Shown: piece by piece, positions 33,879 to 57,884 of the stretch
Layout: each line of letters begins with the position of its first letter
Position numbering within the stretch: position 1 is the first letter of the stretch
Source: a virus
IMG/VR virus record: IMGVR_UViG_3300007609_000003
Location: 124,001 to 188,000 of that record
DNA length: 64,000 nucleotides
Direction: 5' to 3' (one strand)
The notes under the pieces: generated by a model
Databases searched by the model: none
Told to the model about the DNA's origin: nothing
Seen by the model: only the letters and a program-made list of their open reading frames with translations
Translations under genes and position numbers: made by a program

Positions 33879-34757
33879 TTAAGGTCGAAAGGCCTTTTTA
33901 GTTTTCTTTTTGTAGTTCTTTGGATTAGATTCCTTTGTAGCTGTTGCGCTAACTCCTAGAGTACTTACAGCACCAAGGGATCCACGGAATACATAGTTTC
34001 CTACGTGCTGCAGTTCCATCCAAGGACACATATGAACCTTAATACCAATTTTAGTCGCGTTTCGGCAGAAGAAGTAATCTTCTGATAGATAACGATTTGA
34101 GTCCGGATCAATTTCGCAATCAAAGAACGCCGTGATCTGATGTGAACCATCGAAGTTCTTTGTTCTTGCGTGGTCAGGAGTATATTTGAGTTCAGGATAT
34201 GCTTCTGCGTATTTCTCTAGCGCTTCACGGGGTATCAGCATAAATCCTGTACCAGCTTCACTTACCTCAACCGGTTCATCAATTCGGAAAGATGTTACAC
34301 CCTTGGCCATATTGAACACGTAGTCACCAGCATAGTAATCTAAATGAAACGGACTTTCATCAGCTTTGCCAAGTTCCACGGCCTTCTTTACCTTTTCCCA
34401 GGCAATAGTCTTTTTAGGATACGGTCCGGTCATAATATCGTATGTTTCCGGATTTAGAGTTTGAATTCCTAGTAATGAGAGTACATCATTTGCTTTAAAC
34501 CCGATATCTGAGTCAATGAACATAAGGTGAGTACAGTCAGAACGAAGGAACTCATCTACCACATAGTTCCTTGCGCGCTGAACTAAGCTCTCGTTGAATA
34601 GGTAATAGAACCTTACGTCGATCCCATACTTTGCACACATGGACGCAAGATCGTTCGTTGATTTGCAGAAAGTACCTGCACACTGTCCTCCATACATTGG
34701 AGCACCAATGAATATAGAATACTTTTGAAGATGCTCGGTTGTAATTTGGATATCCAT
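33879..34757 (-). CDS. GT-A-type glycosyltransferase-like protein
   Basis: 292 residues. 'YSIFIGAPMYGGQCAG' begins the domain. 'ESLVQRARNYVVDEF' is followed by 'CTHLMFIDSDIGF', which carries the Asp-x-Asp metal/nucleotide-binding motif of GT-A folds. Later 'EVSEAGTGFMLIPREAL' and 'YLSEDYFFCRNATKIG' resemble the acceptor-side E-D of such enzymes. The C-terminus is Lys-rich. Similar genes exist in marine T4-like phages. The target could be DNA, a virion protein or a cell-surface glycan; its place at the end of the DNA-modification block suggests DNA (inference). Confidence 0.65.
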   Translation of the reverse strand: MDIQITTEHLQKYSIFIGAPMYGGQCAGTFCKSTNDLASMCAKYGIDVRFYYLFNESLVQRARNYVVDEFLRSDCTHLMFIDSDIGFKANDVLSLLGIQTLNPETYDIMTGPYPKKTIAWEKVKKAVELGKADESPFHLDYYAGDYVFNMAKGVTSFRIDEPVEVSEAGTGFMLIPREALEKYAEAYPELKYTPDHARTKNFDGSHQITAFFDCEIDPDSNRYLSEDYFFCRNATKIGIKVHMCPWMELQHVGNYVFRGSLGAVSTLGVSATATKESNPKNYKKKTKKAFRP

Positions 34758-34769
34758 AATATAATTCCT

Positions 34770-35396
34770 TTATAGTAATTCTAAGTCGTTTTCTGCACGG
34801 TGGATCTGTTGCATTCTAAGTACGTCAGCTAGGATATCCCACGCGCTGTCGTGCTTTTTAAACTTTGCATTCCAAGTATTTTCGTCCGTCATAGGAGTAA
34901 AACCGTTCTGCTTTGGGAAGTTGAGTTTGGCGTCGATATAAGTACGAGTATCACGTACTCTCCAATACTTTAGGTATTCTTCCATATGTAAAAGTTTATC
35001 TTCCGCTTCAAAGATCCTCGAAAGAATGATTGGATCAAACGTGTTCGATCGGCTCCACCAGAAATCAATCTTTGGAGACTCAATTAAAAACTCGTGAAAG
35101 CTCTTAATGAATTCCTTTACGGTTAGATCCGATTTCTTTGGAGAAACATTGGCACGAACCTCAGGATCCTGTTCTTCCCAGAACTGTAATGTACTCTTAT
35201 CAATTTCCCAACCGTAGTTCTTAACTTGGTCGGCAACCGAGAGTTTGAACTTTCTTGTCTCTTTTATACTATCAAGCGTATATGGATTGGAAGAAAAGCG
35301 GTCGGTATTGAATACCATAACAGAACAATCTACGATGGCGCACTTTGATGCATCTTTTCCCATAGTCTCAAAGTCAATAATAAAGTGGTTACTCAT
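34770..35396 (-). CDS. dexA: Exonuclease A (DexA)
   Basis: 208 residues (T4 DexA: 227). DnaQ-like 3'-5' exonuclease: 'FIIDFETMGKDASKCAIVD' carries DxE, 'WWSRSNTFDPIILSRIFE' carries the second Asp, and 'KKHDSAWDILADVLRMQ' carries the HxAxxD motif. T4 DexA is a non-essential single-strand exonuclease. Its ATG overlaps the TGA of the methyltransferase gene (ATGA). Confidence 0.88.
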   Translation of the reverse strand: MSNHFIIDFETMGKDASKCAIVDCSVMVFNTDRFSSNPYTLDSIKETRKFKLSVADQVKNYGWEIDKSTLQFWEEQDPEVRANVSPKKSDLTVKEFIKSFHEFLIESPKIDFWWSRSNTFDPIILSRIFEAEDKLLHMEEYLKYWRVRDTRTYIDAKLNFPKQNGFTPMTDENTWNAKFKKHDSAWDILADVLRMQQIHRAENDLELL

Positions 35397-36607
35397 GCGA
35401 AGAATTCCTCTAGTGTGGCCATATCAGTCTTTCCGAGCGGATCGTTTTCCATTCTCTCGTAATGATTGTTCTGGCGTAGATAGTTTGTATCAGATAGTTC
35501 CAATTCACCACGAACGAACTTTCCAATCTCAGTGTGTATATCACGAGACGTAGGTACCGGTACGTTCTGCGCAATATGGTTCATTTTTGCGAGACCACCG
35601 ACGAGTTCAAAGTCGTCAGGGAATCCCATCATATGTAATGCCTCACGAATAGTTAATGAACGATCGTGGATAGGATGAATAGTATCGGCAAGATTTCTAC
35701 CAATTACAGCATTCATACATTCATCAAACACGTGAGTAGAACTGTCCCATACACCTTTACCCATTGCGTACTTTTTAATCGCGTGATCCGATACCTTAAC
35801 TCCACGTTCGTGACCAACTTCTTTAAACCACTTGTTTGCTTCTTCGAGCAATCCTTGGCGTTGGATATATGTAAAGGCTGTAATATTTTGATTACGAATT
35901 AGAATATCCCTTGGGTTCTCGTTTGTTCTCGATTTGAGGAACTGAAAGTATGGTTCATCATCGAGCTTTTGGTTAATAATTAGATCCTGCTGTAGTTGCT
36001 TTTCATCAACTTCAGTTACATAGTCCCTAAAGTTCTTACGATCTCGTTTGTACCAGGACATGATTGGAGCCTTTTCTGATTTCCAACCGATCGCAAAGGT
36101 ACGATCGCGAGCTTGAGGAATACCGTGATACTTGGTAGAAGTTTTGTATAGAGTTAAACTATAACCTCTTTTGTTGCAAATGTCAAACAAATTGTTTGCA
36201 ACTTCACGACCTTTATTTGTATAGAGGGCAGGAGCGTTCTCGACTACGACTGCCTTTGCACCGAATAGATCAAAACCGTCCTCAAATACTTTGTACATCC
36301 ATTCGTTCTTTGCGCATCCTGCGCCTTTTGCTTCTTCGGTCTTACCGGTGTTCAATTGCGACAACGCAGCACAGGGTGGAGTACCCGACACAACATCAAC
36401 CTTATGAATTGGTGGACCTTCGTCTAGGAGCCGATATTCCAATCCACGACCCTTTACGTTATTCTGGTAGTTAACATAGTGGCTATCATTTGCTTGGAAC
36501 CCGTCGTAGGAATAGATTGCCTCTGGTGGTTTACCAAAAGCTTTTTCTGCTCCTAACATTTGACCGCCGATGAGTGGTATATGTGATGCCCATGTAATAT
36601 TGCTCAT
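35393..36607 (-). CDS. C5-cytosine DNA methyltransferase with polymerase-like C-terminal tail
   Basis: 404 residues. C5-methyltransferase motifs: I-like 'HIPLIGGQMLGAE', IV 'SGTPPCAALSQLN' (catalytic Cys ~79), VI 'VVVENAPAL' (Glu ~123), VIII 'IPQARDRTFAIGW', and IX/X 'LTIREALHMMGFPDDF' with 'PVPTSRDIH'. It should transfer or handle a group at cytosine C5. The last residues, ATLEEFFA, match the tails of the neighbouring glycosyltransferase and of gp43, suggesting sliding-clamp binding. In a phage that also has dCMP hydroxymethylase, its substrate may be residual cytosine or hydroxymethylcytosine (inference). Confidence 0.85.
   Translation of the reverse strand: MSNITWASHIPLIGGQMLGAEKAFGKPPEAIYSYDGFQANDSHYVNYQNNVKGRGLEYRLLDEGPPIHKVDVVSGTPPCAALSQLNTGKTEEAKGAGCAKNEWMYKVFEDGFDLFGAKAVVVENAPALYTNKGREVANNLFDICNKRGYSLTLYKTSTKYHGIPQARDRTFAIGWKSEKAPIMSWYKRDRKNFRDYVTEVDEKQLQQDLIINQKLDDEPYFQFLKSRTNENPRDILIRNQNITAFTYIQRQGLLEEANKWFKEVGHERGVKVSDHAIKKYAMGKGVWDSSTHVFDECMNAVIGRNLADTIHPIHDRSLTIREALHMMGFPDDFELVGGLAKMNHIAQNVPVPTSRDIHTEIGKFVRGELELSDTNYLRQNNHYERMENDPLGKTDMATLEEFFA
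36158..36186 (-). promoter_or_regulatory. Possible internal sigma70 promoter in the methyltransferase gene
   Basis: TTGACA (36186-36181), 17-base spacer, TATAGT (36163-36158) on the coding strand. The match is as good as the intergenic promoters, but it lies in codons for FDICNKRGYS, so it could be chance. If active it would add transcripts for DexA and the GT-A-like gene. Confidence 0.3.
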
Positions 36608-36619
36608 TATTCTTATTCC

Positions 36620-37864
36620 CTATGCAAAAAAGTCTTCAAGTGTTGATACGGTTTTCTTTTCATACTTGCTCGTATCCGGCTGAATATAATTCGGATCCAC
36701 TGAGGACATGATCTTGTTGTTTATAAATGTTCCATCGTAGTATTCTGGTTTAAGAACTGCTTTACGCAGATTGGCGAGTACTTCTTCATACCGCGCTTTA
36801 TCATCAATAAGACTCTGCATGCGTTCATAGAACTCAGATGGAGTTTGTGGACGAAGAAACATCGGAATAGGTAGATGACCTTGCGTATCATATGAAGGAT
36901 GAAGGAAAGGAATTACGCCGGCGTGGATCATTTCGATATACTTTGATGTGGTCCAACCTTCTTTAATCGGAATAATGAAGGTAAACTTTACATCTTGTAA
37001 TTTGTTCTGCAGTTCACTAAGATGAAGGGATCCTTTGAAACGACTGTCCTCTCCAGTCACGTCTGACCATTTACCATATACTTCTACGTCGTCAAACTTA
37101 TTCAATACCCATTCCTTGAGTAGATTATAACGAGACGGTTTACCTTCGTTGAGAACAACCATGAAGTCGGTGTTACGATCCATGTTTACCTGTTCACCGT
37201 ATTCATAGTCCCCGCAGAACGCAGTCTCCATACCAGCATACTCTGATTTAACTACACGAGTAATACGTTCCTGGTCCTCATAGTTACGAATAGCAAAGGT
37301 TTCATATTCATAATCAAACTGGCCGAGAGATTTCATTGGCATATGGAACACGTCACGCGGTTGCTTTATGGTATAACGCGGATCGTTTACGATCTCAACG
37401 TAAGGTGGCTTTTCTTCATTCAGCCAAGTAGTAATCGGGGTTGTGTACCACTTAGACATGTCGAGAGTGGCGGCAGGTTTTCCGTCGTTACCCTCTCTTA
37501 CCTTTTGAATACGATTTGGAATAGTCACGTTACTCATTTGACCAATCATCATAATCGTAAAATCGAGTGTAAGGTTCTTTTCTTTAAAGTAGGTAATGAT
37601 ATGGTTGAAGTACTTCTCAGAGATCTCTAACCCAACGCCTTCCCATACATCGACCACGTTATCATATGGAAACAACTCGTTCTTTTCAATATCAGATAGA
37701 GTGGCGTAGTCAGAGCGACCTACGATATAAAAATTTTTGTCCGGATTGTTGTTCGCTACAGCGCGTAGAGTGCAGGATGCTTCGTTGTCTCCGCCAATCG
37801 GAGAGTACTTGTTTGTTCTAAATTTAATAGATTTGCCTACTTTTGCAAAGCCGATGTTTTTCAT
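36620..37864 (-). CDS. GT-B-type glycosyltransferase, candidate DNA base glycosyltransferase, clamp-tail
   Basis: 414 residues. The second half shows the GT-B donor domain: 'VEVYGKWSD', 'KGSLHLSELQNKLQDVKFTF', 'IIPIKEGWTTSKYIEMIHAG', 'VIPFLHPSYDTQGHLP', then a run of helices as in T4 beta-glucosyltransferase (same order of elements, little identity). The C-terminal STLEDFFA matches the gp43 and methyltransferase ends. T4 alpha-glucosyltransferase has been reported to contact gp45, so clamp tethering of a DNA glycosyltransferase has precedent. It lies in one operon with gp42, a nucleotidyltransferase-kinase and a HAD phosphatase. Sugar and exact acceptor are unknown. Confidence 0.65.
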   Translation of the reverse strand: MKNIGFAKVGKSIKFRTNKYSPIGGDNEASCTLRAVANNNPDKNFYIVGRSDYATLSDIEKNELFPYDNVVDVWEGVGLEISEKYFNHIITYFKEKNLTLDFTIMMIGQMSNVTIPNRIQKVREGNDGKPAATLDMSKWYTTPITTWLNEEKPPYVEIVNDPRYTIKQPRDVFHMPMKSLGQFDYEYETFAIRNYEDQERITRVVKSEYAGMETAFCGDYEYGEQVNMDRNTDFMVVLNEGKPSRYNLLKEWVLNKFDDVEVYGKWSDVTGEDSRFKGSLHLSELQNKLQDVKFTFIIPIKEGWTTSKYIEMIHAGVIPFLHPSYDTQGHLPIPMFLRPQTPSEFYERMQSLIDDKARYEEVLANLRKAVLKPEYYDGTFINNKIMSSVDPNYIQPDTSKYEKKTVSTLEDFFA

Positions 37865-37865
37865 T

Positions 37866-38228
37866 TTAACCCCATTCTATAAATTTGACAAAATCCTGCG
37901 GAAGCATTGCTTTGTCATCAACATAATAAACGCCGTATGGTTTACCCCATACGATCTCGTCGTATGGTACCTCGTACTTTTCTAACCAATCGGTAGTAAT
38001 CTTTCCGACATCATCGATAATTTTATTTATATCGCCGTCGTGAGTCACCATTCTACGAGCCGTATGAATTACGATCCGATAGCCCTTTTCTCTTGCGATC
38101 TTTAGGCTATTAATCATTTCAGTCTTAGGACTGGCCATACTATACTTTTCATAACTATCCTTTCTTCCATGGAGTGGAATGCAGATAGTATCATCAAGAT
38201 CCATTACTATTGTTTGTTGCGTATTCAT
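37866..38228 (-). CDS. HAD-family phosphatase (capsule-biosynthesis type)
   Basis: 120 residues. HAD motif I 'VMDLDDTICIP' (residues 8-18), motif II 'IHTARRM', and the C-terminal 'WGKPYGVYYVDDKAML' with motif IV DD. Short HAD proteins of this class occur in sugar-nucleotide and capsule clusters, where they remove phosphate from sugar phosphates. It overlaps the nucleotidyltransferase-kinase gene by 35 bases and precedes the glycosyltransferase by one base, so it probably serves the same pathway. Confidence 0.75.
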   Translation of the reverse strand: MNTQQTIVMDLDDTICIPLHGRKDSYEKYSMASPKTEMINSLKIAREKGYRIVIHTARRMVTHDGDINKIIDDVGKITTDWLEKYEVPYDEIVWGKPYGVYYVDDKAMLPQDFVKFIEWG

Positions 38229-39684
38229 TCACATAACCTATCATTCTCTGTTGTCTTTGTTCACAATCGTAGTGCAGCTTAATGCAGGTAGCAATAAGTA
38301 GAGCACCACCGTCAATGATCTCATCGTATTCTTCTGGATAGTATTTCATTACCATCTTTGAGAAACTTTCTTTGACGTAACTCGGATATTTATGCCCGGT
38401 GACTAGTTCGTTATATCCATGGTAAAGATCGTGAGACAACTTGCACATATCGTATAGGTAGTCGCCACCACATCCTACATGATTTCCATACGAACCGCGT
38501 GGATCTAACAGTGTGATGCTATCGTTATATGGATTATATAGAATGTTACCAAAGTGCAGATCACCGTGCATTGCTGCAACGGGTCGAGCCTTCTTCAAAC
38601 ATCTTTGGGCTACTTCTGTATAATATGGAGAGAAACCGTATGAAGGCAACCTTTCGGCGGTCTTTTCAATCCACATTGCTTCGGCGTTTACATAAAAGTC
38701 TGCAGTGAATTGAAGATCCGCTCTGGTATGAAAGTGTTTCTGCATTACGTTTATTACTTTTTCGATTAAGTAGTCAATCGTACTGTTCGAAATATCCTCG
38801 TGCATAAACAGGTCTGACAGTAGCACGCCGGACTCGTATGACATTGACAGTGCATAGTTGTTCTCAAGGATCTTTGGTACCATCATCTTTTGATGAGAGT
38901 TGAGTGAGTCATACCACAACTTCTCGTTCATAACAGTCTTAACCGCAAACTTGTTCTTAGGATCTGGGTTCTTAGTAACTACATTGAGATCCGGATCATA
39001 TTCAAAGGAGTTGAACTCACGGGCTTTAAAGGTAAGGAACTCGGCACATGTTCTATGATAGGATGAGATGTCGCCAATGTCATACCACCCGTTCGTATAG
39101 ATACGCTTGTACTGAGAGCCGTATGCGTCGAGCGCAGCAGAGATATCGTAGTCATCAGTATTTCGAAAGGCCGAAGTTGCGATCGTACCGTCACTGAAAC
39201 TATACAGTCCTACGAGAGCAACCGCGTCTGCGATCGTTTCCTTTGGTTTGTTGTAGTATTGCTTACCATCCCACATACACCAAGCAAAGTGATCCTCTAC
39301 ATCTTTTACTAATAGAAAGTCTTTACCCAATGGAAGGTTTTCATCAAGGATGATTGCGTCTCCGAGCCATACAACGAGTGGAAGATCTGAATCATCAAGT
39401 TCATCGATGCCAACTCGAATAGCATCGCGGGGACCGTTCAACGATCCCTGTTTTACACAATGAATATTATCGTACTTACTCTTTTCTGCCCATTCTCGGA
39501 TGTCGTTATGTTTTCCATCAACGATAACGATCTCGGCTACATCAGGAGTATTCTTATAGATGGACTCAATGATATACTCGATCGTAGGCTTGCCATGAAC
39601 ACGGACCATCGCCTTTGAGCAGTTTGATGTTAAGGGTCGTAGGCGAGTTGCTTCACCCGCCGCCGGTATTACTACATTGATCAT
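38194..39684 (-). CDS. Sugar nucleotidyltransferase-kinase fusion
   Basis: 496 residues from the ATG at 39684 (GGAGAGGA six bases upstream; earlier Mets lack a site). Residues 1-235 are a sugar-1-phosphate nucleotidyltransferase: 'VIPAAGEATRLRPLTSNCSK', 'VVWLGDAI', 'NGWYDIGD'. Residues ~280-480 are an aminoglycoside/choline kinase-like fold: 'AAMHGDLHFGNILYN' (catalytic HGDxxxxN) and 'ITLLDPRGSYGNHVG' (metal Asp). One protein could thus phosphorylate a sugar or alcohol and activate it to an NDP-linked donor. This supports donor synthesis for the neighbouring glycosyltransferase. The substrate is not deducible. Confidence 0.8.
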   Translation of the reverse strand: MINVVIPAAGEATRLRPLTSNCSKAMVRVHGKPTIEYIIESIYKNTPDVAEIVIVDGKHNDIREWAEKSKYDNIHCVKQGSLNGPRDAIRVGIDELDDSDLPLVVWLGDAIILDENLPLGKDFLLVKDVEDHFAWCMWDGKQYYNKPKETIADAVALVGLYSFSDGTIATSAFRNTDDYDISAALDAYGSQYKRIYTNGWYDIGDISSYHRTCAEFLTFKAREFNSFEYDPDLNVVTKNPDPKNKFAVKTVMNEKLWYDSLNSHQKMMVPKILENNYALSMSYESGVLLSDLFMHEDISNSTIDYLIEKVINVMQKHFHTRADLQFTADFYVNAEAMWIEKTAERLPSYGFSPYYTEVAQRCLKKARPVAAMHGDLHFGNILYNPYNDSITLLDPRGSYGNHVGCGGDYLYDMCKLSHDLYHGYNELVTGHKYPSYVKESFSKMVMKYYPEEYDEIIDGGALLIATCIKLHYDCEQRQQRMIGYVNEYATNNSNGS

Positions 39685-40321
39685 ATTGTCCTCTCCATGC
39701 ATCGTATTCATCTTCAAGATTAACCCACTGCATTTTTGTATATCGTGTTTGCGCAGAAAAACGTTTATCCCAAATTATCCACATATATGCAATCATCCCT
39801 CCTATTTGATCCTTCTTTTCGACAGGTTCAACTAGACCAGAATCAAATTTAGCGCGATCTGATAGAAATATTATATCACTTGGTGGGTTATTTGTAAATA
39901 GTTTTTTTCTCTTTTTTCCTTCAAGAAACGTTAAGCGAAGAAACATTGCGGTGTAACTGTATTCATCAATCCACTTTTCGGCCAACTTACGAGGCAGGTC
40001 CTTATGATACGGTGGATTGGTTACTACACCTTCGGCAAAGTCTTGCTTTGGAGTCTCAAGAGCGTCGTGTGATGTATTTATGCTACATAGAGAGTCTTTG
40101 TATTCGTGTAGGTCATGGCTTAAAACATTATGACCATTTCGAGCAAGTTCAACAGAAATGTTACCCTTTCCTGCGCAGGGTTCAAAAATGTTCTGCGGTG
40201 GTCTATTATATTTGCATAGTATGTAGGTAGCAAGAGGAGGGGTCGGATAGAAGTCGTTCTTCTTACGATTTGGATCGTTCTTTTTTACGCCAACGTATAT
40301 ATCTGTTAAGTTCTTAGCCAA
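39653..40321 (-). CDS. N6-adenine/N4-cytosine-type DNA methyltransferase-like protein
   Basis: 222 residues, start TTG at 40321 (no nearby ATG; AGGTGA upstream). SAM-binding 'IFEPCAGKGNISVELARNGH' and catalytic 'TNPPYHK' (NPPY) are typical of amino-methyltransferases; N-terminal 'KKNDFYPTPPLATYILCKY' is the usual lead-in. No target-recognition domain is evident, so it may have short or little specificity. It overlaps the dCMP deaminase by eight bases and the nucleotidyltransferase gene by 32 bases. Confidence 0.75.
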   Translation of the reverse strand: MAKNLTDIYVGVKKNDPNRKKNDFYPTPPLATYILCKYNRPPQNIFEPCAGKGNISVELARNGHNVLSHDLHEYKDSLCSINTSHDALETPKQDFAEGVVTNPPYHKDLPRKLAEKWIDEYSYTAMFLRLTFLEGKKRKKLFTNNPPSDIIFLSDRAKFDSGLVEPVEKKDQIGGMIAYMWIIWDKRFSAQTRYTKMQWVNLEDEYDAWRGQYDQCSNTGGG

Positions 40322-40865
40322 GGATCGTCACCTGAACGTTTGCTTCTTTAAACATCGGAGCACTTCTTTCTTCCCATATTTTTTGCCAATCACCTTTTTC
40401 TGATTTAAACGTAGGTATAACAACGCGTTTGATGCCAGCTTGGATAACGCATTTCGCACAATCTGAACATACAGGCAAACCATGTACATACATTGTAGCA
40501 CCGTTGAGACTTACACCAGAATACAAAGCATTCATTAGAGCATTCATTTCCGCGTGAATGACTAATCGGTACTTTTCAGGTCGGTCATTTAAACGTTCTT
40601 GAGTATCATCAATACCTTTTGGAAATCCGTTATAACCTGTGGCCAAGATACGATGCTCGTCGTTAACTGCAACAGCACCAATTTGGCTCGTAGGATCTTT
40701 ACTCCAAGATGCAATTAGTTTGGCCATTTCCATGAAACGGTTGTCCCACTTTTTCATTTTAGAAGTTATCTCTCTATCTTTTAGCCGAATATATTCTTCA
40801 TATGGTTCCTGCCTATTTACAGCGTCGTAGTCAGGGTAACCTTTTTCAAAAACAGGGCTTGTCAT
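40314..40865 (-). CDS. cd: dCMP deaminase
   Basis: 183 residues (T4: 193). Zinc site 'IHAEMNALMNALYSG' (HAE) and 'VHGLPVCSDCAKCVIQAGIK' (PxxCxxC), with 'DPTSQIGAVAVNDEHRILAT' and 'GYNGFPKGIDD'. It turns dCMP into dUMP for thymidylate synthesis, and in T4 balances dCMP between dTMP and hydroxymethyl-dCMP. The ATGA overlap with the next gene shows coupling. Confidence 0.93.
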   Translation of the reverse strand: MTSPVFEKGYPDYDAVNRQEPYEEYIRLKDREITSKMKKWDNRFMEMAKLIASWSKDPTSQIGAVAVNDEHRILATGYNGFPKGIDDTQERLNDRPEKYRLVIHAEMNALMNALYSGVSLNGATMYVHGLPVCSDCAKCVIQAGIKRVVIPTFKSEKGDWQKIWEERSAPMFKEANVQVTILG

Positions 40866-41062
40866 TTATTCTCCTTGACCCATTCTTCTTCGCCTGCGTA
40901 TGTGGAACATTTATCGAGTTTGGATTGAGCGTAGAACAAAACTTCATACAACTCTTGTTTACACCCAAATGTAACAAAACCATCCATGCGAGGATCCGAC
41001 TCCGCAAACGCAATCTTGTCGATTTCGTGCTTAATTTTATCTATTGACCAGTTTTTAATCAT
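40862..41062 (-). CDS. Small unknown protein in nucleotide-metabolism operon
   Basis: 66 residues (MIKNWSIDKIKHEIDKIAFA…). Soluble, charged, no motif recognised. It is joined to the dCMP deaminase by ATGA and to the gene before it by an eight-base overlap, with GGAGxx-type spacing in the upstream coding sequence. Presence in a tight operon supports that it is real. Confidence 0.55.
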   Translation of the reverse strand: MIKNWSIDKIKHEIDKIAFAESDPRMDGFVTFGCKQELYEVLFYAQSKLDKCSTYAGEEEWVKENK

Positions 41063-41273
41063 CTATTCTACTCCATTTAAGTCCAAAACAAATTCTTTGC
41101 ATAAATCTATGAAATGCATTTGGCTGATTACCTTCTACCACAAGGTATACATGGTCTGGCGTAAGCTGACACTGCCATGATGCTTTAGGTGGCGAATAAA
41201 TTTTGTAACCGCCGCCGCTGATTGCTTCTTCTACAGAAGAAAACTGTATAGCCTTTACATCTATCTCATCCAT
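41055..41273 (-). CDS. Small unknown protein downstream of gp42
   Basis: 72 residues (MDEIDVKAIQFSSVEEAISG…) containing 'GGGYKIYSPPKASWQCQLTP'. It begins one base after the gp42 stop and overlaps the next small gene. Function unknown. Confidence 0.55.
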   Translation of the reverse strand: MDEIDVKAIQFSSVEEAISGGGYKIYSPPKASWQCQLTPDHVYLVVEGNQPNAFHRFMQRICFGLKWSRIDD

Positions 41274-41274
41274 G

Positions 41275-41964
41275 TTATTGTACCAAGTGAAAATGACGGC
41301 TATACACGTGCAAGTTCATTACCTGCCATGTAAGATCACCTTTTTCAATTTCGCCATGTTTACCATCAATACCAGCAAGTTCATTCCATAGCTTTACAAA
41401 CTCATCCATTAGGTACTGGGCCCAAGCATAATCATTTTTGTAACCAAAGACTACGTCGTTTGAACGCATTTGAGATACCATGTGGAGTTTATCATCACGA
41501 ATATAGAATGTCTGAGCGTTGGTACAGATAAAATCTGATTTACCATTTTCATTGAACTCAACCCAGATAGATGGTCGGTTATATACCATTTGTGAGCGAC
41601 GGCTGTCTCGGTTATACCAAAGCTCATTAAAAGCTTTATCAAATTGATTAAAGTACTTATCAGCAAACACCAAATGACCATAGTTGGAATTGATTTCTCC
41701 ATTGTCGTCTGCTGAATATACCCACGCAGCTGGAGGTTTTTTATCTTTACCATGAATGTCGTTAATGTTAGTAGAGCCTGACTTATACCAAGCCAGTTCA
41801 GCATCAATGTATTCCTGCTTTGGAGTACCAAAGATAGCAGGCTCGTCGGCAATAAAGCTTGCACCTAACATTTCAATCGTTTGCTGGCCTGTCTTGTCGG
41901 TTGTGAAACGTTCTGCCTTGAGTTCTTCAATAAAATAGTTACGAATATCATTTACGTTTTGCAT
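41275..41964 (-). CDS. 42: dCMP hydroxymethylase gp42
   Basis: 229 residues (T4 gp42: 246). Clear thymidylate-synthase-family match to T4 gp42: 'DKTGQQTIEMLGASFIADEP', 'GEINSNYG', 'SRRSQMVYNRPS', 'SDFICTNAQT' (catalytic Cys 147; T4 148), 'RSNDVVFGYKNDYAWAQYLM' (Asp 178; T4 Asp179 selects dCMP over dUMP, where thymidylate synthase has Asn) and 'LHVYSRHFHLV'. It makes 5-hydroxymethyl-dCMP, implying hydroxymethylcytosine in the phage DNA. A perfect sigma70 promoter lies just upstream at 42009-42037. Confidence 0.92.
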   Translation of the reverse strand: MQNVNDIRNYFIEELKAERFTTDKTGQQTIEMLGASFIADEPAIFGTPKQEYIDAELAWYKSGSTNINDIHGKDKKPPAAWVYSADDNGEINSNYGHLVFADKYFNQFDKAFNELWYNRDSRRSQMVYNRPSIWVEFNENGKSDFICTNAQTFYIRDDKLHMVSQMRSNDVVFGYKNDYAWAQYLMDEFVKLWNELAGIDGKHGEIEKGDLTWQVMNLHVYSRHFHLVQ

Positions 41965-42449
41965 TATGCATATTCCTTATAATTAGAAAAGCTGTACTTT
42001 GTAATCTCATTATACAACTTATCGCTGCGAATGTCAACAATTTTTGTAAACGTTTCTAATGGAAAGAGTGCAACCAACCTTCCATCGTGTTGATTTACAA
42101 TAAATTCAAAATCGCGTTTTCCTAACGGCGCAGCTTCCCATAGGGTAACCGCCCTATCTTTGCCAGGATTTTGGACAACGATAAGTCGTTCCACATTCAC
42201 GCATTTGTTGAGTTGATTTCTTGTAATCTTGCCATTTCGCGTATTATATACAGGTATGGAAAAAGAATTGAATTTATGGTATAGAGTCTCGAACTTTACT
42301 TCTGTTCGTACTCCATTGATAAACATGTCTTTTTCTTGGTCGTATGGATCTGTCGACATTTCAACTGTATCGCCTTGCATCGTGAAATAGTCAGACACAA
42401 CCGTTTCGGCAATGTCACCAAGAATTTTTTGTGATTGAGCTCTATTCAT
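41964..42449 (-). CDS. Putative PD-(D/E)xK nuclease-fold protein
   Basis: 161 residues. 'KILGDIAETVVSDYFTMQGD' followed by 'DQEKDMFINGVRTEVKFETL' gives Glu...Asp-x(9-11)-Glu-x-Lys, the restriction-endonuclease-fold active-site pattern. The remainder is unremarkable. It overlaps gp42 by one base and the DUF5664 gene by ATGA. It could cut unmodified host DNA in a phage that carries modified cytosine, but that is inference. Confidence 0.5.
   Translation of the reverse strand: MNRAQSQKILGDIAETVVSDYFTMQGDTVEMSTDPYDQEKDMFINGVRTEVKFETLYHKFNSFSIPVYNTRNGKITRNQLNKCVNVERLIVVQNPGKDRAVTLWEAAPLGKRDFEFIVNQHDGRLVALFPLETFTKIVDIRSDKLYNEITKYSFSNYKEYA
42009..42037 (-). promoter_or_regulatory. Perfect sigma70 promoter for gp42 operon
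   Basis: TTGACA (42037-42032), exactly 17 bases, TATAAT (42014-42009), inside the 3' end of the nuclease-fold gene and 45 bases before the gp42 ATG. Both boxes are full consensus. It would make gp42, dCMP deaminase, the methyltransferases and sugar genes a strong early unit. Confidence 0.75.
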
Positions 42450-42754
42450 TTTTTGAACCTATCATCGGTAGATGGATCTCCTTCGATCGTAGTCATTACG
42501 AGGATCATCATTTGTGTAAGAGCATGTGACAAGTGTGGTAAACCGGACTCAGGGTCTTCATCTTCACCTGACATATATGCCATGAGATGGCGTTGAATAG
42601 ATGAATAATGACGAGAGACAGGAAAGTTGTCAATGTCCTGCCGCCAATTGTTTTCACCATACTTTTCTGCGCCAAAGCCAAAGACCCGAGCAGCTTCAAT
42701 GATAGCCTCAGGTGGTACTAGGTGGATCTTTGGTTTACCTTCATCGTATTTCAT
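42446..42754 (-). CDS. DUF5664 protein (dATP/dGTP diphosphohydrolase type)
   Basis: 102 residues. 'KYDEGKPKIHLVPPEAIIEA', 'ARVFGFGAEKYGENNWRQ' and 'SGLPHLSHALTQMMILV' match the DUF5664 family, annotated as the N-terminal domain of dATP/dGTP diphosphohydrolases, an all-alpha NTP pyrophosphohydrolase relative. It probably trims a dNTP pool. It is coupled to the nuclease-fold gene by ATGA. Confidence 0.75.
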   Translation of the reverse strand: MKYDEGKPKIHLVPPEAIIEAARVFGFGAEKYGENNWRQDIDNFPVSRHYSSIQRHLMAYMSGEDEDPESGLPHLSHALTQMMILVMTTIEGDPSTDDRFKK

Positions 42755-44586: not shown

Positions 44587-45561
44587 TTACTTACCTTCTA
44601 CGCTTGCTTGCGTTTTAGCAAGTTCTGGATCGCTAACCAATCCATATTGTGCCAGTGGACCATCTGGGCCTGCTACCATGTCTGCTACAAAGAAACGAAC
44701 ATAGTCATACAATCCTGGGATCGTGTCTGCGTGTGCGTCTTTGACATAGAAGAACAATGGCCGGCTAACTGGATACTCAGCACTTGCGACGGTGCTTGCG
44801 CTTGGACGAACACCATTGATGGTTGCTACTTCGATAGTGTCTGTGTTGTTCTCATAGAACGCTAGTCCAAATACACCAAACGAGTTTTGGTTAGCATTAA
44901 TGTTTGCCAATGTCTCTGTATAGTCACCATCAATATCAATGCTACGTCCATCTGTACGTGTATCCATGCACATAGATTCTGCTTCGTCTTCACCGTGGGC
45001 TGCTTCAAACTTCTCAAAGTCACCTACTGCTTCACAGCCTACCAACAGAACCTTTTCTTCAAATACTTCACGTGTTCCATGCTTCGTGCCTGGAATGAAC
45101 ATTTTGATTTCATACGCTGGGAAACCTGGATCCACTTGATCCCATGTTGTTAGTTCACTGCGATTGTTGAGTGCAAGATAGATGTGTTCTGGTGTAAATG
45201 CGAAACGTTGGTCTTCAATAGAGTTGGCAAATACGATGCCATCATAACCAAACATAACTTCTGTAATTTCTGTTACGCCATTGTCTGCACAAACCTTGAC
45301 TTCTTTAGGTTTGATAGGACGACTTGAGTTTGCGATGTCAATTGTGTTTTCACCTACGCCTTGGCAAAAACGTTTCATACCTGCGCTTGATCCACCCGAC
45401 TCAACAACTGGCGTTGGATAGTCAAAGTTCTCACCAAATGCTTCTGCTACGATTGATGCGTATGGCAGAACAGTTGACGAACCTGCGATTTGGATATTGT
45501 CTCTTGCTGATACGGTCGTTGCAGTCAATGCAATACCCGCAGCTAAAATAAGATTCTTCAA
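44587..45561 (-). CDS. pstS: Phosphate-binding protein PstS
   Basis: 324 residues from a TTG at 45561, chosen because AAAGGAAT precedes it and the resulting N-terminus is a standard Sec signal peptide (MKNLILAAGIALTATTVSA, cut before RDNIQ). The mature part has phosphate-site loops 'IAGSSTVLPYASIVAEAF' and 'VESGGSSAGMKRFCQGVG', then 'FGYDGIVFANS'. PstS binds phosphate in the periplasm for the host Pst transporter. Several phages of phosphate-poor waters carry it. A PHO box lies upstream, so host PhoB probably controls it during infection. Confidence 0.93.
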   Translation of the reverse strand: MKNLILAAGIALTATTVSARDNIQIAGSSTVLPYASIVAEAFGENFDYPTPVVESGGSSAGMKRFCQGVGENTIDIANSSRPIKPKEVKVCADNGVTEITEVMFGYDGIVFANSIEDQRFAFTPEHIYLALNNRSELTTWDQVDPGFPAYEIKMFIPGTKHGTREVFEEKVLLVGCEAVGDFEKFEAAHGEDEAESMCMDTRTDGRSIDIDGDYTETLANINANQNSFGVFGLAFYENNTDTIEVATINGVRPSASTVASAEYPVSRPLFFYVKDAHADTIPGLYDYVRFFVADMVAGPDGPLAQYGLVSDPELAKTQASVEGK

Positions 45562-45590
45562 TTGGAATTCCTTTCCTAAAACATTAATGA

Positions 45591-45608
45591 GGCGGCACCC
45601 TTGCCGCC
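45591..45608 (-). other. GC-rich hairpin in the pstS leader
   Basis: Perfect 7-base-pair GGCGGCA/TGCCGCC stem with a four-base loop between the pstS promoter and its ribosome-binding site. No T run follows, so it is probably an mRNA-stabilising 5' structure rather than a terminator. Confidence 0.6.
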
Positions 45609-45613
45609 CCCAT

Positions 45614-45664
45614 ACTATACTATATATCATGCTTTTGTAACAATCGTGTTAAGGTTTTGTAACA
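45614..45664 (-). promoter_or_regulatory. PHO-box promoter of pstS
   Basis: On the minus strand three heptamers TGTTACA, CTTAACA, TGTTACA are spaced by exactly four bases each (45664-45658, 45653-45647, 45642-45636), giving the 11-base period of PhoB binding sites. TATAGT (45624-45619) follows 11 bases later as the -10, with no consensus -35, as in PhoB-activated promoters. Confidence 0.75.
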
Positions 45665-45721: not shown

Positions 45722-46132
45722 TTACATTGCTTTATCAATATCGCCGTGGTTTCCGGTATGGTCTGGTGGAACCCACCCCTCCGGCTTAATAAGGTCCGGA
45801 AGTCCGAATTTGTTTGGTCGGCCGTCCTTTACACCAACTTCCTTTGAAGTGTTTGCTTCATATACGCGATCCCATGCTTCGTTAGGATCCACTCCAAATA
45901 CATCAAGAGTACCGATAGCAAACACACAGAGGTCAATAAGACCATCAACAACTTCTTCAGGGTCCTTTGCTTCAACAGCGTCGAGAGACTCATCAAGTTC
46001 TTCTTTGCACATAGATAGACGGAACCGAAGGTACTTATCCATCAGATCTTTATCGTGTTTGTTTTCTTCGAACCATTCATGCACACCAAACTTACTGTGC
46101 ATCATATAGATATCGTTTGCCCAATCGCTCAT
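45722..46132 (-). CDS. MazG-like NTP pyrophosphohydrolase
   Basis: 136 residues from the ATG at 46132 (GGAGAAT upstream). 'LSMCKEELDESLDAVEAKDP' followed by 'EEVVDGLIDLCVFAIGTLDV' and 'EAWDRVYEANTSKEVGV' carry the EExxE...ExxD metal-binding pattern of the MazG/phosphoribosyl-ATP pyrophosphohydrolase family. It may lower (p)ppGpp or remove unwanted dNTPs, both proposed for phage MazG. Its promoter is consensus. Confidence 0.8.
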   Translation of the reverse strand: MSDWANDIYMMHSKFGVHEWFEENKHDKDLMDKYLRFRLSMCKEELDESLDAVEAKDPEEVVDGLIDLCVFAIGTLDVFGVDPNEAWDRVYEANTSKEVGVKDGRPNKFGLPDLIKPEGWVPPDHTGNHGDIDKAM

Positions 46133-46161
46133 AGTATATTCTCCATTGTTGTATAGTTCAT

Positions 46162-46190
46162 AGTATATCACATAACTGCAGTTTTGTCAA
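46162..46190 (-). promoter_or_regulatory. Sigma70 early promoter for mazG-like gene
   Basis: TTGACA (46190-46185), 17-base spacer, TATACT (46167-46162), just upstream of the MazG ribosome-binding site; the -35 overlaps the stop of the DUF465 gene. Confidence 0.85.
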
Positions 46191-46395: not shown

Positions 46396-47496
46396 CTACA
46401 TGAAAAAACTTTCAAGGGTATCCTTTTTCTCGGCATGCCATCCAATTGCTTCAAGAATGCTTTCAACTGGGCCGAGGAATACTTTGCTAAATTGTGTTTC
46501 ATAATCTACATATTCGTCTAATCCTAACTGTTTTGGCAATACGTTTGGAAACGAAATGATATTTTCACGCAGTGGATTTGGAAGTTTTAGATATACGAAT
46601 TTGATCTTATCGCCGCTTCTTACAGCCTCGTACGTTTTGTTCAATTTCTTTTCCTTAAGAAACTTGTTGTATAGGATTGCGCCGCGAACGTGCATAGGAC
46701 AACCCTTCTTGTAGGTTCCCATAGACATGTACTTTTCGATGTTGTCTGTACCAGAGTTACGGCCGACAGACTCAGGAGGAAGGTTATAGAACTCCGTCCT
46801 AAAGTCTGCGATAAAGTTCTGAACGTCGGTCTCAGTACCCTGCATAATAACTTCAAAGGCTTCTTTCATCTTTTCACGACATACCTCAGGAGTTGAGGAT
46901 CGAACAGACTCCAAACCGGTTACCGAGATCTTTGGCTTTTCGTAGTGAACACCTTCAGAGTTGAGAGTATTCATAATGTAACGTTTCTTTGCGATAAACA
47001 CCGACTTATCAGTAATCTTTTCGCGTTTCATAAACATTGCCTGGCGATATGCGCCCATCTTTTTGGCAAGCTCTTCGTAACCTGCTTCAATGATTGGCTC
47101 GATCTTCATTTGGCAAACTTTATCAAGGAACTCTTCACCCTTCTTACGATCAACGTCAATAGTACCAAAGGCAGACTCGACGATGGGAGACATGTCAACA
47201 TAGATGGAGTCAGTGTCGATATAAACGATGTAGTCGTTATCCGTCTTAAGGATCTTATTCATATAATCGTTTACGGACTTCTGAGCATATCGAATAGACA
47301 ACTGACCGGATGTAGTGATAGCTTCAGCCATGTCATTAATATAGTATAGGAAGTAAATGTTTGCCATCGCGCCATAAAGCGAGTTTAGCGAAATTTTAAT
47401 CGCCATCTGACCGTTGTGTAATTGGTTTGCTTGCCGTTGCTTTTCAGCCAGAAGATCTTCGAGTTCTTCATTGCTTAGATTTTTGAGATTCATCAT
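46396..47496 (-). CDS. 43B: DNA polymerase gp43, C-terminal half (palm motifs B and C, thumb)
   Basis: 366 residues. Contains polymerase motif B 'KISLNSLYGAMAN' (~34-46), motif C 'YIDTDSIYVD' (~92-101) and the thumb, ending 'KKDTLESFFM', the position of the clamp-binding tail in T4 and RB69 gp43. Lacks exonuclease and motif A, which are in the other gene at 48440-49930. Together the halves have 862 residues, near the 898 of T4 gp43. AAAGGAAAAG lies before the tandem ATGs. The two parts must associate to form an active enzyme; split gp43 is known in some Aeromonas T4-like phages. Confidence 0.93.
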   Translation of the reverse strand: MMNLKNLSNEELEDLLAEKQRQANQLHNGQMAIKISLNSLYGAMANIYFLYYINDMAEAITTSGQLSIRYAQKSVNDYMNKILKTDNDYIVYIDTDSIYVDMSPIVESAFGTIDVDRKKGEEFLDKVCQMKIEPIIEAGYEELAKKMGAYRQAMFMKREKITDKSVFIAKKRYIMNTLNSEGVHYEKPKISVTGLESVRSSTPEVCREKMKEAFEVIMQGTETDVQNFIADFRTEFYNLPPESVGRNSGTDNIEKYMSMGTYKKGCPMHVRGAILYNKFLKEKKLNKTYEAVRSGDKIKFVYLKLPNPLRENIISFPNVLPKQLGLDEYVDYETQFSKVFLGPVESILEAIGWHAEKKDTLESFFM

Positions 47497-47632
47497 TCTT
47501 TTCCTTTACAAATATTTCATACGCCAACTCGTCAATTGATTTATTTGAAATATATCCTCTTTCAACAAGAAATGAAGCTTTATCAATGTATTGCTTTTCG
47601 TTCCTCAAGTATTTTAAATCTTTTTCATACAT
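47468..47632 (-). CDS. Small ORF between the endonuclease and gp43B
   Basis: 54 residues from the ATG at 47632 (MYEKDLKYLRNEKQYIDKAS…, 'SNKSIDELAYEIFVKEKNDE'), charged and helical. It overlaps the endonuclease stop by eight bases and gp43B by 29 bases. It is the first gene after the internal promoter at 47677-47705, and its translation across the gp43B start could couple the two. Weak ribosome-binding site; may be a remnant of insertion. Confidence 0.45.
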   Translation of the reverse strand: MYEKDLKYLRNEKQYIDKASFLVERGYISNKSIDELAYEIFVKEKNDESQKSKQ

Positions 47633-48362
47633 ATTTAAAAAGTTCTTCAAAGCATTTGGTTTTTGTATTGTTAATCACTATATCACTAAAACGCAAAACT
47701 GTCAACCCGTTTTCAGCGGCCTGCCCTTCAAATTCTCTATCCTTTTTCTTTTGTTCTGTTGAACTATGCCAGTACTCGCCATCAATCTCAACTAATATGT
47801 TTGTTCCTAATATTTTAAAATCGTAGCGATGCATTCCTTTATCTATTTGATACTGCCTTTCATATTGTATGTTATGCTCTTTGCACCACGATGCGAATTG
47901 GCGCTCTGGTTTTGTAAATCTATACGCACCGTCACCCTGGGCATGCACGCCAATAATTCCATCATAACATAATTGTCGCTGGCGCTCTCTCTTCTCTTCT
48001 GTCCAATATAAGCTTTGATTATTTTTAGGGACGTCGTTTTCACGTAGAATTCTAAGTATGGTATTTTGAACAACCCCGAATTCGCCTGCTATTTTTTTAG
48101 CTGACATTTTTTTATTTTTATACATGTCTATAATAGCCACTTCATCCAACTTAATCTTATGTATCTCAGAATATCTTTTTCTTTTGGCTTCTGAGCTCCA
48201 GTTTCTTTTAAGTATACCTGGGTTTTCTTTCTTTATTTTATTGTAGAACGCGAAGTAATTCAAATCGTTTACTTCGCAAACGTGCCTAAGACTTTCACCA
48301 TCTTGTATTTCTTTAACAACCATATCATAGTTGCTAGTTAACTGCTCTGAATATTTTGACAC
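47625..48362 (-). CDS. EDxHD (Vsr-like) homing endonuclease in split gp43
   Basis: 245 residues from the GTG at 48362, which has GTTGGAG six bases upstream; a TTG twelve bases earlier lies within that site. N-terminal 'CEVNDLNYFAFYNKI' and 'SAKKIAGEFGVVQNTILRIL' are helix-turn-helix DNA-binding parts. C-terminal 'FTKPERQFASWCKEHNI', 'HRYDFKILGTNILVEIDGEY' and 'WHSS' carry the E-D-x-H-D nuclease core related to very-short-patch repair enzymes. This family is often found free-standing in fractured phage genes. Such enzymes cut the uninterrupted allele to spread themselves. Driven by its own late promoter. Confidence 0.85.
   Translation of the reverse strand: MSKYSEQLTSNYDMVVKEIQDGESLRHVCEVNDLNYFAFYNKIKKENPGILKRNWSSEAKRKRYSEIHKIKLDEVAIIDMYKNKKMSAKKIAGEFGVVQNTILRILRENDVPKNNQSLYWTEEKRERQRQLCYDGIIGVHAQGDGAYRFTKPERQFASWCKEHNIQYERQYQIDKGMHRYDFKILGTNILVEIDGEYWHSSTEQKKKDREFEGQAAENGLTVLRFSDIVINNTKTKCFEELFKYV
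47677..47705 (-). promoter_or_regulatory. Sigma70 promoter inside the endonuclease gene, driving gp43B
   Basis: TTGACA (47705-47700), 17-base spacer, TATAGT (47682-47677) within the last codons of the homing endonuclease, 180 bases upstream of gp43B. It is as strong as the gp43A promoter and would let the second polymerase half be made independently. Confidence 0.7.
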
Positions 48363-48396
48363 GTTTTTCTCCAACTAGGTTTGTTCATTACAATTT

Positions 48397-48404
48397 TATT
48401 TATA
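48397..48404 (-). promoter_or_regulatory. T4-type late promoter (TATAAATA) for the homing endonuclease
   Basis: Exact TATAAATA on the minus strand, 35 bases before the GTG start, in the 77-base gap after gp43A. Late control of homing endonucleases inside early genes is known in T4 (e.g. I-TevI). Confidence 0.8.
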
Positions 48405-48439
48405 ATGAAAAGCAAGAGAGTTCATAACAATTTTTATTT

Positions 48440-49930
48440 TTATGCAACTTTTCTACGATTTATCTCTTCTTTAATTTTTTCGATCTCCTGCTCAACCTCC
48501 AACATTTCTTTCTTGATAATTTTACGATTACCGTAGTACTCGTCAATGATCTCGGGAATGATACCGATATGTTTGTTTGTAAAACACGCGCCGTTTGCCG
48601 CGACCGAAACATCAGACTTTTGGTTTTGGTAATTACCATCCAATACCATATCTTGAGAGACATAGTCACGTTCATCCTTCATATACGTCTCAGGAGACAT
48701 GTTGTACTGAAGCATTAGGTGTGGATATAGTGAGTTTAGATCGAAGGAGACGATCCAAGGATGCATACCGACCTTTGGGTCCTTTACATAACCACCGACG
48801 AGATCGCCAGCACGTTGTCCTGGTCCACCCTTAACGTGAGGTACTCTCTTTTCCTGAATCAGTTTGCGATAGAGAGTCGTTTCCCAGATACCAACGGTAC
48901 CGAATGCATCTCCGAAGTTTACTCCGCCACCGTAAGCAACGGTCATAACTAACTGAAGTAGAGACGTTTCATCTTCCATTCTCTGAATAAGATGAGTGTC
49001 CTTAAGGTTATAGTCGAGATACAACTGAGGGTTCTTTTCATATAGAGTCGTAAGATCACCGTACTCTGAATAATCGAGTTTCTTTTCTCCAAGGATTACA
49101 TATGCGATATGGTCGAGTTTATATGACTCTTGAGGACCGTACTTATAACCAAACTTTTTAAACGCGTCCATATAGTCGATTACTGTCATACCGGTAATTT
49201 GATAAGTGGAAGCAGGTTTTCCAAAGATCTCACGCGTTTTCATGCGTATGTTTCTCCAAGGAGACAGCTGCTTTGCCTTTTCTTCACCAAACAGTCGAAT
49301 GATACGTGTAACAACATACATAATATCAAAGTATTCAACGTTCCAACCTGTAATAACCTCAGGATAGTCGTTCATCCAAATCTGAATAAAACGCTGAAGC
49401 ATTGCTTGTTCAGTATCAAACTCCATAAATTGAATATCGTCTGGGTCGATGCCAGTGATAGTTTTTGTCTTATCATAGTCCTTACGAGCCAAGAGATGGT
49501 ACGTACTTGTCTTTGAAGACTTCATTGAGATAGAAGTAATCTCTTTATCAGCTTCATCGATATTTGCGTATCCGTCGCTGATATCGACCTCGATGTCAAA
49601 AGACATGATGTTAATCTTTTTCATATCAAACTTAATATCACCTGGATATTTTTGTTGAATGAACTGAGCTACATAGTTTGTATTTCCATACATTTCAAAA
49701 CCATGTACGTCCTTATGCTGTTCGATAAACTCCTTTGCCTCTGACATAGATAGACATTGCCGAGGAGACAGAGGGCGATCACCGATTAGCGAACGGTATT
49801 CACCGTCTTTGTCTGGCAAGAACAGAACTGGTTTAAACTTTTCCTTACGAATAAACGGTTTTCCGTTTTCATATCCACGCCATAGGATGTTGTTACCAAA
49901 ACGTTCAACATTTGTATAAAAATTAGACAT
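48440..49930 (-). CDS. 43A: DNA polymerase gp43, N-terminal half (exonuclease and palm motif A)
   Basis: 496 residues. Family B: Exo I 'MSFDIEVD' (~109-116), Exo II 'TGWNVEYFDIMYV', Exo III 'YNLKDTHLI', and palm motif A 'SFDLNSLYPHLMLQYNMSPE'. It ends in a helical stretch 'IKKEMLEVEQEIEKIKEEIN' that corresponds to the fingers; motif B starts in gp43B, so the split is in the fingers domain. The helical ends of both halves may pair as the interface. A consensus early promoter is upstream. Confidence 0.93.
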   Translation of the reverse strand: MSNFYTNVERFGNNILWRGYENGKPFIRKEKFKPVLFLPDKDGEYRSLIGDRPLSPRQCLSMSEAKEFIEQHKDVHGFEMYGNTNYVAQFIQQKYPGDIKFDMKKINIMSFDIEVDISDGYANIDEADKEITSISMKSSKTSTYHLLARKDYDKTKTITGIDPDDIQFMEFDTEQAMLQRFIQIWMNDYPEVITGWNVEYFDIMYVVTRIIRLFGEEKAKQLSPWRNIRMKTREIFGKPASTYQITGMTVIDYMDAFKKFGYKYGPQESYKLDHIAYVILGEKKLDYSEYGDLTTLYEKNPQLYLDYNLKDTHLIQRMEDETSLLQLVMTVAYGGGVNFGDAFGTVGIWETTLYRKLIQEKRVPHVKGGPGQRAGDLVGGYVKDPKVGMHPWIVSFDLNSLYPHLMLQYNMSPETYMKDERDYVSQDMVLDGNYQNQKSDVSVAANGACFTNKHIGIIPEIIDEYYGNRKIIKKEMLEVEQEIEKIKEEINRRKVA

Positions 49931-53416: not shown

Positions 53417-53444
53417 TTGACATTTCTTGAACAATGAGTATAAT
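53417..53444 (+). promoter_or_regulatory. Consensus sigma70 promoter reading antisense into uvsW
   Basis: TTGACA (53417-53422), 16-base spacer, TATAAT (53439-53444) on the plus strand, in the 162-base gap between gp55 and uvsW. No plus-strand gene follows; the transcript would start about 53451 and run antisense across the 3' end of uvsW. Just downstream is the palindrome AGAATTAATAATTCT. Confidence 0.6.
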
Positions 53445-57471: not shown

Positions 57472-57884
57472 AAACCGGTATTGTAGCATCATCGTTTGAT
57501 CTATTACACTCGGGACATATTATGATGTTAAGGGAAGCAAAGACAAAATGTGATCATTTGATTTGTGCCCTTCAAATAGATCCTAGCATAGATCGAGATG
57601 AAAAGAACTCGCCTATACAGAGTATAGTTGAAAGATACACTCAGCTGAACGCTGTAAAATATGTAGATGAAATTGTCGTGTACCAAACGGAAAAGGATCT
57701 TGAGGACATACTCGAATCATATCCGATTAATATACGTATCCTTGGTGAAGAATATAAAGATAAAGATTTTACAGGTCGCGAGATATGCAAACGGCTAGGC
57801 ATACATATATACTTTAATAAACGAAATCATAGGTTTAGCTCGAGTGGGCTAAGAAAAAGAGTTATAGCAAAAGAAAATGGTTGA
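57468..57884 (+). CDS. Cytidylyltransferase-family nucleotidyltransferase
   Basis: 138 residues, TTG start overlapping the PMM TGA, with AAAGGAG upstream. Motifs 'SSFDLLHSGHIMMLREAKTK' (HxGH) and C-terminal 'RFSSSGLRKRV' (ISSxxxR-like) mark the glycerol-3-phosphate/RfaE-type cytidylyltransferases. It activates a phosphorylated alcohol or sugar with CTP (or ATP/GTP). Coupled to PMM, so it probably uses or supports the same sugar pathway. Confidence 0.8.
   Translation: MKTGIVASSFDLLHSGHIMMLREAKTKCDHLICALQIDPSIDRDEKNSPIQSIVERYTQLNAVKYVDEIVVYQTEKDLEDILESYPINIRILGEEYKDKDFTGREICKRLGIHIYFNKRNHRFSSSGLRKRVIAKENG

Follow-up and report, generated by a model that had tools for sequence, protein, structure and literature searches.

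The 64-kb stretch of viral DNA analyzed here (bases 124001-188000 of the 201,055-base IMG/VR virus record IMGVR_UViG_3300007609_000003), which we call the window and whose coordinates are used below unless the record is named, contains a gene block that we interpret, with a probability of roughly 0.7, as an operon for DNA hypermodification based on 5-hydroxymethylcytosine (hmC), in which a sugar activated by the phage itself, probably not glucose, would be attached to hmC. The phage is T4-like and of aquatic origin. No match was found to the window in a nucleotide search against phage records, and we found no published account of this exact gene combination in the open-access literature. The open reading frames (ORFs) listed in a preliminary description of the window were all located where it placed them, co-directional on the minus strand, with neighbors that abut, overlap by 1 to 35 nucleotides (nt) or leave short gaps. 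Domain searches along the block identified a thymidylate synthase/dCMP (deoxycytidine monophosphate) hydroxymethylase, a dCMP deaminase, a phrog_799 protein with an NPPY motif, an NTP_transferase domain together with an APH-like kinase, a PNKP/EcbF-like HAD protein and a PF00145 protein. The interpretation given in that description held for hmC made as in T4 and for a phage-encoded donor module, but not for the GT-A-like protein that it had included in the pathway.

The modified base is indicated by the dCMP hydroxymethylase (41275-41964), an ortholog-like relative of T4 gp42 with 48% identity to it and 25% to RB69 ORF048c. The catalytic Cys147 and the dCMP-selecting Asp178 pointed out earlier are both exact in the translation, and Asp occupies the latter position in the 86 other sequences of the alignment (86/86), T4 gp42 among them, whereas a separate, true ThyA encoded at 36117-37019 of the record has Asn there. 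The gp42-like identity and the Asp, set against the Asn of the phage's own ThyA, argue for hydroxymethyl-dCMP (hm-dCMP) as the predicted product. Several neighbors might act on the nucleotide pool, all of them on the minus strand: the dCMP deaminase (40314-40865; PF00383, E = 2e-23; PF14437), a PF18909 protein (dATP/dGTP diphosphohydrolase N-terminal; Pfam E = 3e-29) at the head of the cluster (42446-42754), whose gene adjoins the hydroxymethylase in many related loci, and, upstream of the cassette, a PF01503 (MazG-like) pyrophosphohydrolase (45722-46171) that is a candidate for removing dCTP. Environmental contigs whose cytosine modification was demonstrated by experiment have been reported to combine a set of domains that includes PF00303 (thymidylate synthase), PF00383 (dCMP deaminase) and PF01503 (PRA-PH) (PMC8670742). 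PF12851 (TET/JBP dioxygenase) had no match in the record and, likewise, none in the control genomes.

The candidate DNA glycosyltransferase, of GT-B fold (36620-37864), had no match in Pfam, PHROG or NCBIfam, and the assignment, already proposed in the preliminary description, comes from structure. An AlphaFold2 model built from 24 sequences (predicted local distance difference test [pLDDT] score of 89.8) retrieved T4 beta-glucosyltransferase (BGT; 1qkj) at rank 1 in a Foldseek search of the whole PDB, with BGT entries making up 6 of the top 11, while rank 2 in the viral structure library BFVD was a protein named DNA beta-glucosyltransferase. The donor domains of both proteins could be aligned with hhalign (E = 0.0014), placing R245, K308 and E311 over R195, R269 and E272 of BGT, which we take to be residues with roles in that enzyme. 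Profiles of T4 alpha-glucosyltransferase (alpha-GT), RB69 ORF003c and RB69 ORF050c did not match the protein. We thus consider it a candidate DNA beta-glucosyltransferase-like enzyme.

Directly upstream of the GT-B gene are the two genes of the putative sugar-donor module. One encodes a fusion of an N-terminal sugar-1-phosphate nucleotidyltransferase with a C-terminal APH-type kinase (38194-39684, start set at the ATG at 39684), with its key residues conserved, and the other an EcbF/BcbF-like HAD phosphatase (37866-38228; motifs DxDDT, T56, K96 and D104-D105). Both are distant relatives of the RB69 pair ORF53_52c and ORF051c, of JS98 gp42 and gp41 and of genes of Enterococcus phage 9183. The fusion is 21 to 29% identical to those of JS98, 9183 and Pseudoalteromonas phage vB_Psh_XG4 (XG4), with invariant catalytic residues, and is also related to Thanatos TH1_060, a homolog reported to be required for propagation (PMC12838424). 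The RB69 genes have been implicated in the supply of activated (nucleoside diphosphate [NDP]-) arabinose (PMC6024577, PMC13390438), and the presence of their relatives beside a T4 BGT-like enzyme supports the earlier proposal that this phage activates its own donor. By analogy with activated-heptose pathways, kinase and phosphatase would yield a sugar-1-phosphate that the nucleotidyltransferase would then activate. The T4-like Stenotrophomonas phage DLP6 (locus L004, 6649-8575), without any thymidylate-synthase family gene, also carries relatives of the HAD and fusion genes. A scan of bacterial genomes for homologs of the fusion produced nine distant matches only, mostly to the kinase domain.

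The enzymes and their order are read from sequence or structure, and from them we infer the following pathway. The hydroxymethylase would make hm-dCMP from dCMP, with the deaminase and the MazG-like hydrolases draining dCMP and dCTP; hm-dCMP would then be phosphorylated to hm-dCTP and polymerized into DNA. From a host sugar phosphate, the three activities of the donor module (HAD phosphatase, APH-type kinase and nucleotidyltransferase) would produce a sugar-1-phosphate and then an NDP-sugar, and the BGT-like enzyme would move this sugar onto the hydroxyl group of hmC in double-stranded DNA. Hosts supply uridine diphosphate (UDP)-glucose. Since glucosylation would need no donor genes of the phage, the sugar is probably not glucose, which is the argument behind the earlier claim of an adduct other than plain glucose.

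Scans of IMG/VR revealed many aquatic contigs with the same succession of hydroxymethylase, deaminase, donor module, GT-B, C5-methyltransferase-like protein, exonuclease, phrog_1574 protein, clamp and clamp loader, and the cassette is also found in XG4, a phage available as an isolate. One site in these related phages hosts interchangeable donor modules, with at least three enzyme sets: the fusion and HAD of the window (type A), a HAD-kinase fusion with a TagD-like cytidylyltransferase (type B), and a KdsC-like HAD, a SIS isomerase, a ribulose-phosphate epimerase and a fusion (type C), the last accompanied by a diverged GT-B (28 to 31%) and amounting to a full pentose route. A locus without the fusion has another kinase/nucleotidyltransferase pair in its place, and on other backbones (L193) the hydroxymethylase and C5-methyltransferase-like genes are paired with a TAGT glycosyltransferase. 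Type B loci (L139, 6209-6967; L093, 7542-8303; L158, 7361-8278) contain extra sulfotransferase-like and GT8-like genes between deaminase and GT-B, called by eye and with no Pfam match where tested, which suggests further decoration of the sugar. In the window itself, positions 56773-57884 (plus strand) encode a PMM-like HAD protein and, after it, a TagD-like cytidylyltransferase homologous to that of the type B module, possibly a second sugar-activation pair of this phage.

The most puzzling member of the block is the C5-cytosine-methyltransferase-like protein (35393-36607; PF00145). Its model has a confident C5-methyltransferase fold (pLDDT of 91.1), with M.HaeIII, HhaI and DNMT1-type enzymes as best matches, and the residues of catalytic motifs IV, VI, VIII and X (Cys79, Glu123-Asn124, Q165-x-R167-x-R169 and Asn348) are invariant in 86 distinct relatives. 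The cofactor motifs, whose register was set by profile alignment with 3g7u, are non-canonical: in every covering sequence of the 86, motif I (FxGxG in canonical enzymes) reads I/V-P-L-I-G-G, with Phe replaced by Ile or Val and the first Gly by Leu, and the Glu of motif II is replaced by Ser or Thr. The protein thus has the catalytic motifs of a canonical DNA C5-methyltransferase without the signature of its S-adenosylmethionine (SAM) site, and it seems to have lost the usual cofactor site. The methyltransferase announced in the preliminary description therefore stands as to fold and catalytic residues but not as to the SAM-site signature, and its redundancy, given that C5 would already be hydroxymethylated, had been left unexplained there. 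A hydroxymethylase-like gene lies upstream in all 19 non-redundant loci with at least 6.5 kb of sequence upstream of the C5-methyltransferase-like gene, loci that were ascertained through this gene and its neighbor and many of which share ancestry. The pairing also occurs in XG4, L184, L190 and L193, and in S-TIM5 the partner is an Asp-type thymidylate-synthase homolog; in addition, BFVD lists an S-TIM5 protein under the name DNA alpha-GT.

Two roles can be considered for the protein: methylation of residual cytosine, as by an ordinary methylase, or an accessory function on DNA that contains hmC. The former, in which it would protect residual unmodified cytosine or modify host DNA and the motif changes would be neutral or fine-tuning, falls a little short of an even chance in our estimation. 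It is favored by the invariance of Cys79, Glu123, Arg167/169 and Asn348, by the confidently modeled fold and by the plausibility of residual cytosine in a record where no gp56-type dCTPase was found. It does not account for the constant pairing with a hydroxymethylase, nor for replacements, in all 86 relatives, of residues kept even by the cofactor-switched phage enzyme CmoX, which uses carboxy-SAM, retains Phe25 and Glu47 and needs Arg350 (PMC12783734). CmoX itself (8YF3) matches the protein at the profile level (E = 6e-9), but a carboxy-SAM enzyme of this type is ruled out by Asn348, the HhaI N304 position, found in 86/86 sequences where CmoX needs Arg. Ordinary C5-methyltransferases can act slowly on hmC with loss of formaldehyde (PMC11347137), which makes an hmC-directed role chemically plausible, and, speculatively, the protein may have been repurposed as an enzyme directed at hmC, possibly one that does without SAM. 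That it represents a novel class of DNA enzyme, with a methylase scaffold acting on hmC without SAM in an hmC locus with cartridge-like donor modules, is unlikely in our view; base flipping and Cys attack at C6 could then serve, for instance, a reaction at the 5-hydroxymethyl group (coupling, exchange or removal) or the presentation of the base to the glycosyltransferase.

Several observations weigh against a phage-made glycosyl-hmC. The nearest BGT match is just about 10% identical to the GT-B protein. Relatives of the fusion are present in phages that have no thymidylate-synthase family gene (DLP6 and S-SRM01), in S-SRM01 within a surface-glycan-like cluster, so that the presence of the fusion does not by itself indicate DNA modification. 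A SIS isomerase (PF01380) was not found in the 201-kb record, which may be incomplete, nor in XG4 or 9183, and for lack of it an RB69-type arabinose route would be incomplete here. Phmmer searches of the record with T4 proteins gave no homologs of gp56 dCTPase, gp1 dNMP (deoxynucleoside monophosphate) kinase, DenA, DenB, Alc or Arn, and PF08761 (dUTPase_2) and PF02223 (thymidylate kinase) had no match either; these absences speak against complete replacement of cytosine.

As to the sugar, one candidate is a pentose, for instance arabinose, since phages with arabinosyl-cytosine make use of relatives of the donor genes. An arabinosyl-type cytosine as in RB69/Mosigvirus, with host arabinose-5-phosphate converted to NDP-arabinose and transferred, would be a specific version of the hmC-based explanation. 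It is encouraged by the relationship of fusion and HAD to ORF53_52c and ORF051c and by the full pentose route that type C loci carry at this position, and yet we regard it as tentative and rather improbable: in addition to the missing isomerase, the type C GT-B has diverged as if its sugar differed, and the RB69-type enzyme has been reported to be a 5-hydroxy-dCMP synthase (PMC13390438), with just the 25% identity to the hydroxymethylase given above. Membership in the plain RB69 system was rejected, as neither the isomerase nor the RB69-type transferases were found, and arabinose was retained only as a rival for the sugar. Quite unlikely is that the BGT-like enzyme glucosylates hmC from host UDP-glucose, with the HAD/fusion module serving another purpose such as a surface glycan. 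T4 BGT, the best structural match, is indeed a UDP-glucose user, and the glycan-like cluster of S-SRM01 would fit such a purpose. However, HAD and fusion directly precede the GT-B gene with 1 to 35 nt of spacing or overlap, the pair also precedes a GT-B gene in XG4 and Enterococcus 9183/Planchet, and the fusion, where absent, is exchanged for another kinase/nucleotidyltransferase pair. That the cassette modifies the nucleotide pool or a virion glycan instead of DNA is very improbable, because although genes for sugar activation like these are also used for surface glycans (S-SRM01; NCBIfam similarity to the EcbF/BcbF capsule phosphatase), the cassette is in fixed linkage with a dCMP hydroxymethylase and a BGT-like glycosyltransferase and is placed at replisome genes.

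The remaining genes of the block, like those above, lie on the minus strand. The amino-methyltransferase (39653-40321; phrog_799 DNA methyltransferase, NPPY at residue 102) was found in just a part of the related loci. Two nucleases had been absent from the preliminary description. The DexA-like 3'-5' exonuclease (34770-35396; PF16473, E = 9e-19; 31% identity to T4 DexA) is a conserved downstream neighbor and not a modification enzyme. The 161-amino-acid (aa) ORF at 41964-42449 (phrog_6927) is a candidate PD-(D/E)xK nuclease, a function suggested by an RTEVKFE motif read by eye, and could degrade unmodified DNA instead of the missing DenA/DenB; in type B loci, too, the hydroxymethylase is preceded by a protein of similar appearance (L158, 3855-4343). 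The phrog_1574 protein (33879-34757), with a possible GT-A fold called from sub-threshold Pfam matches, was rejected as a pathway member: its gene is found near gp46/47 and the clamp gene in phiM12, DLP6, Cr30 and vB_OspM_OC, and DLP6 and vB_OspM_OC have no thymidylate-synthase family gene, hence no hydroxymethylase. Judging from these neighborhoods, it belongs with the clamp and replisome genes and is not specific to the cassette.

The perfect sigma70-type promoter noted earlier (TTGACA-17-TATAAT) is present at 42037-42009 on the minus strand, within the preceding ORF and 44 nt ahead of the hydroxymethylase start. The window has two such perfect sites, against 0.08 expected, the second being at 53417-53444 (plus strand). 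Around the cassette, every high-scoring promoter site is on the minus strand and has a spacer of 17 nt. Further upstream (46396-49930, minus strand), two ORFs (48440-49930 and 46396-47496) share the match to gp43 DNA polymerase, and between them lies an ORF of 249 aa (47625-48374) that resembles a DUF559/HTH endonuclease; the arrangement suggests a split polymerase accompanied by a mobile endonuclease. A PstS-like protein that binds phosphate (PF12849, E = 2e-49) is encoded at 44587-45630 (minus strand); it is the product of an auxiliary metabolic gene often met in marine phages.

If the hypermodification reading is correct, the T4 route to hmC has been joined with self-made sugar donors in a widespread aquatic phage group, and the exchange of donor modules at a fixed site suggests that phages alter the chemistry of their DNA coat by swapping modules, a change probably driven by modification-dependent restriction. 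A further question is then the role of a C5-methyltransferase fold on DNA in which C5 already carries a substituent, a chemistry that could yield new hmC-labeling enzymes.

Compared with known systems, the locus shares with the glucosyl-hmC system of T4 (gp42 and BGT) the gp42-like hydroxymethylase (48%, Cys/Asp), the dCMP deaminase and the BGT-like GT-B fold, and differs by its phage-encoded donor activation and extra C5-methyltransferase-like protein, while gp56, gp1, alpha-GT, DenA/B, Alc and Arn were not detected in the record. The arabinosyl-cytosine module of RB69/JS98/Mosigvirus has in common with it the relatives of the nucleotidyltransferase/kinase fusion and the PNKP-like HAD phosphatase, although here the hydroxymethylase is of T4 rather than ORF048c type, with no SIS isomerase and no match to the ORF003c and ORF050c transferases. 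CmoX, a phage 5-carboxymethylcytosine transferase, is another case of a C5-methyltransferase fold repurposed in a phage, but needs Arg350 and keeps Phe25/Glu47, whereas the family described here has Asn348 (86/86) and neither Phe nor Glu. Shewanella phage Thanatos (TH1_060 etc.; deoxypentose-cytosine) has a separate UDP-xylose pyrophosphorylase (TH1_063), and no C5-methyltransferase-like partner is reported in the accessible part of its description, which does include a dCMP hydroxymethylase-like gene, a dCMP deaminase and the RB69-type fusion (PMC12838424). In XG4, where the cluster is unannotated, an extra GT-B gene lies between GT-B and C5-methyltransferase, the HAD gene comes before the fusion, and neither dCMP deaminase nor amino-methyltransferase was found in the block, but hydroxymethylase, HAD, fusion, GT-B (44%) and C5-methyltransferase-like protein (48%) are all united there, as in the window, in one block.

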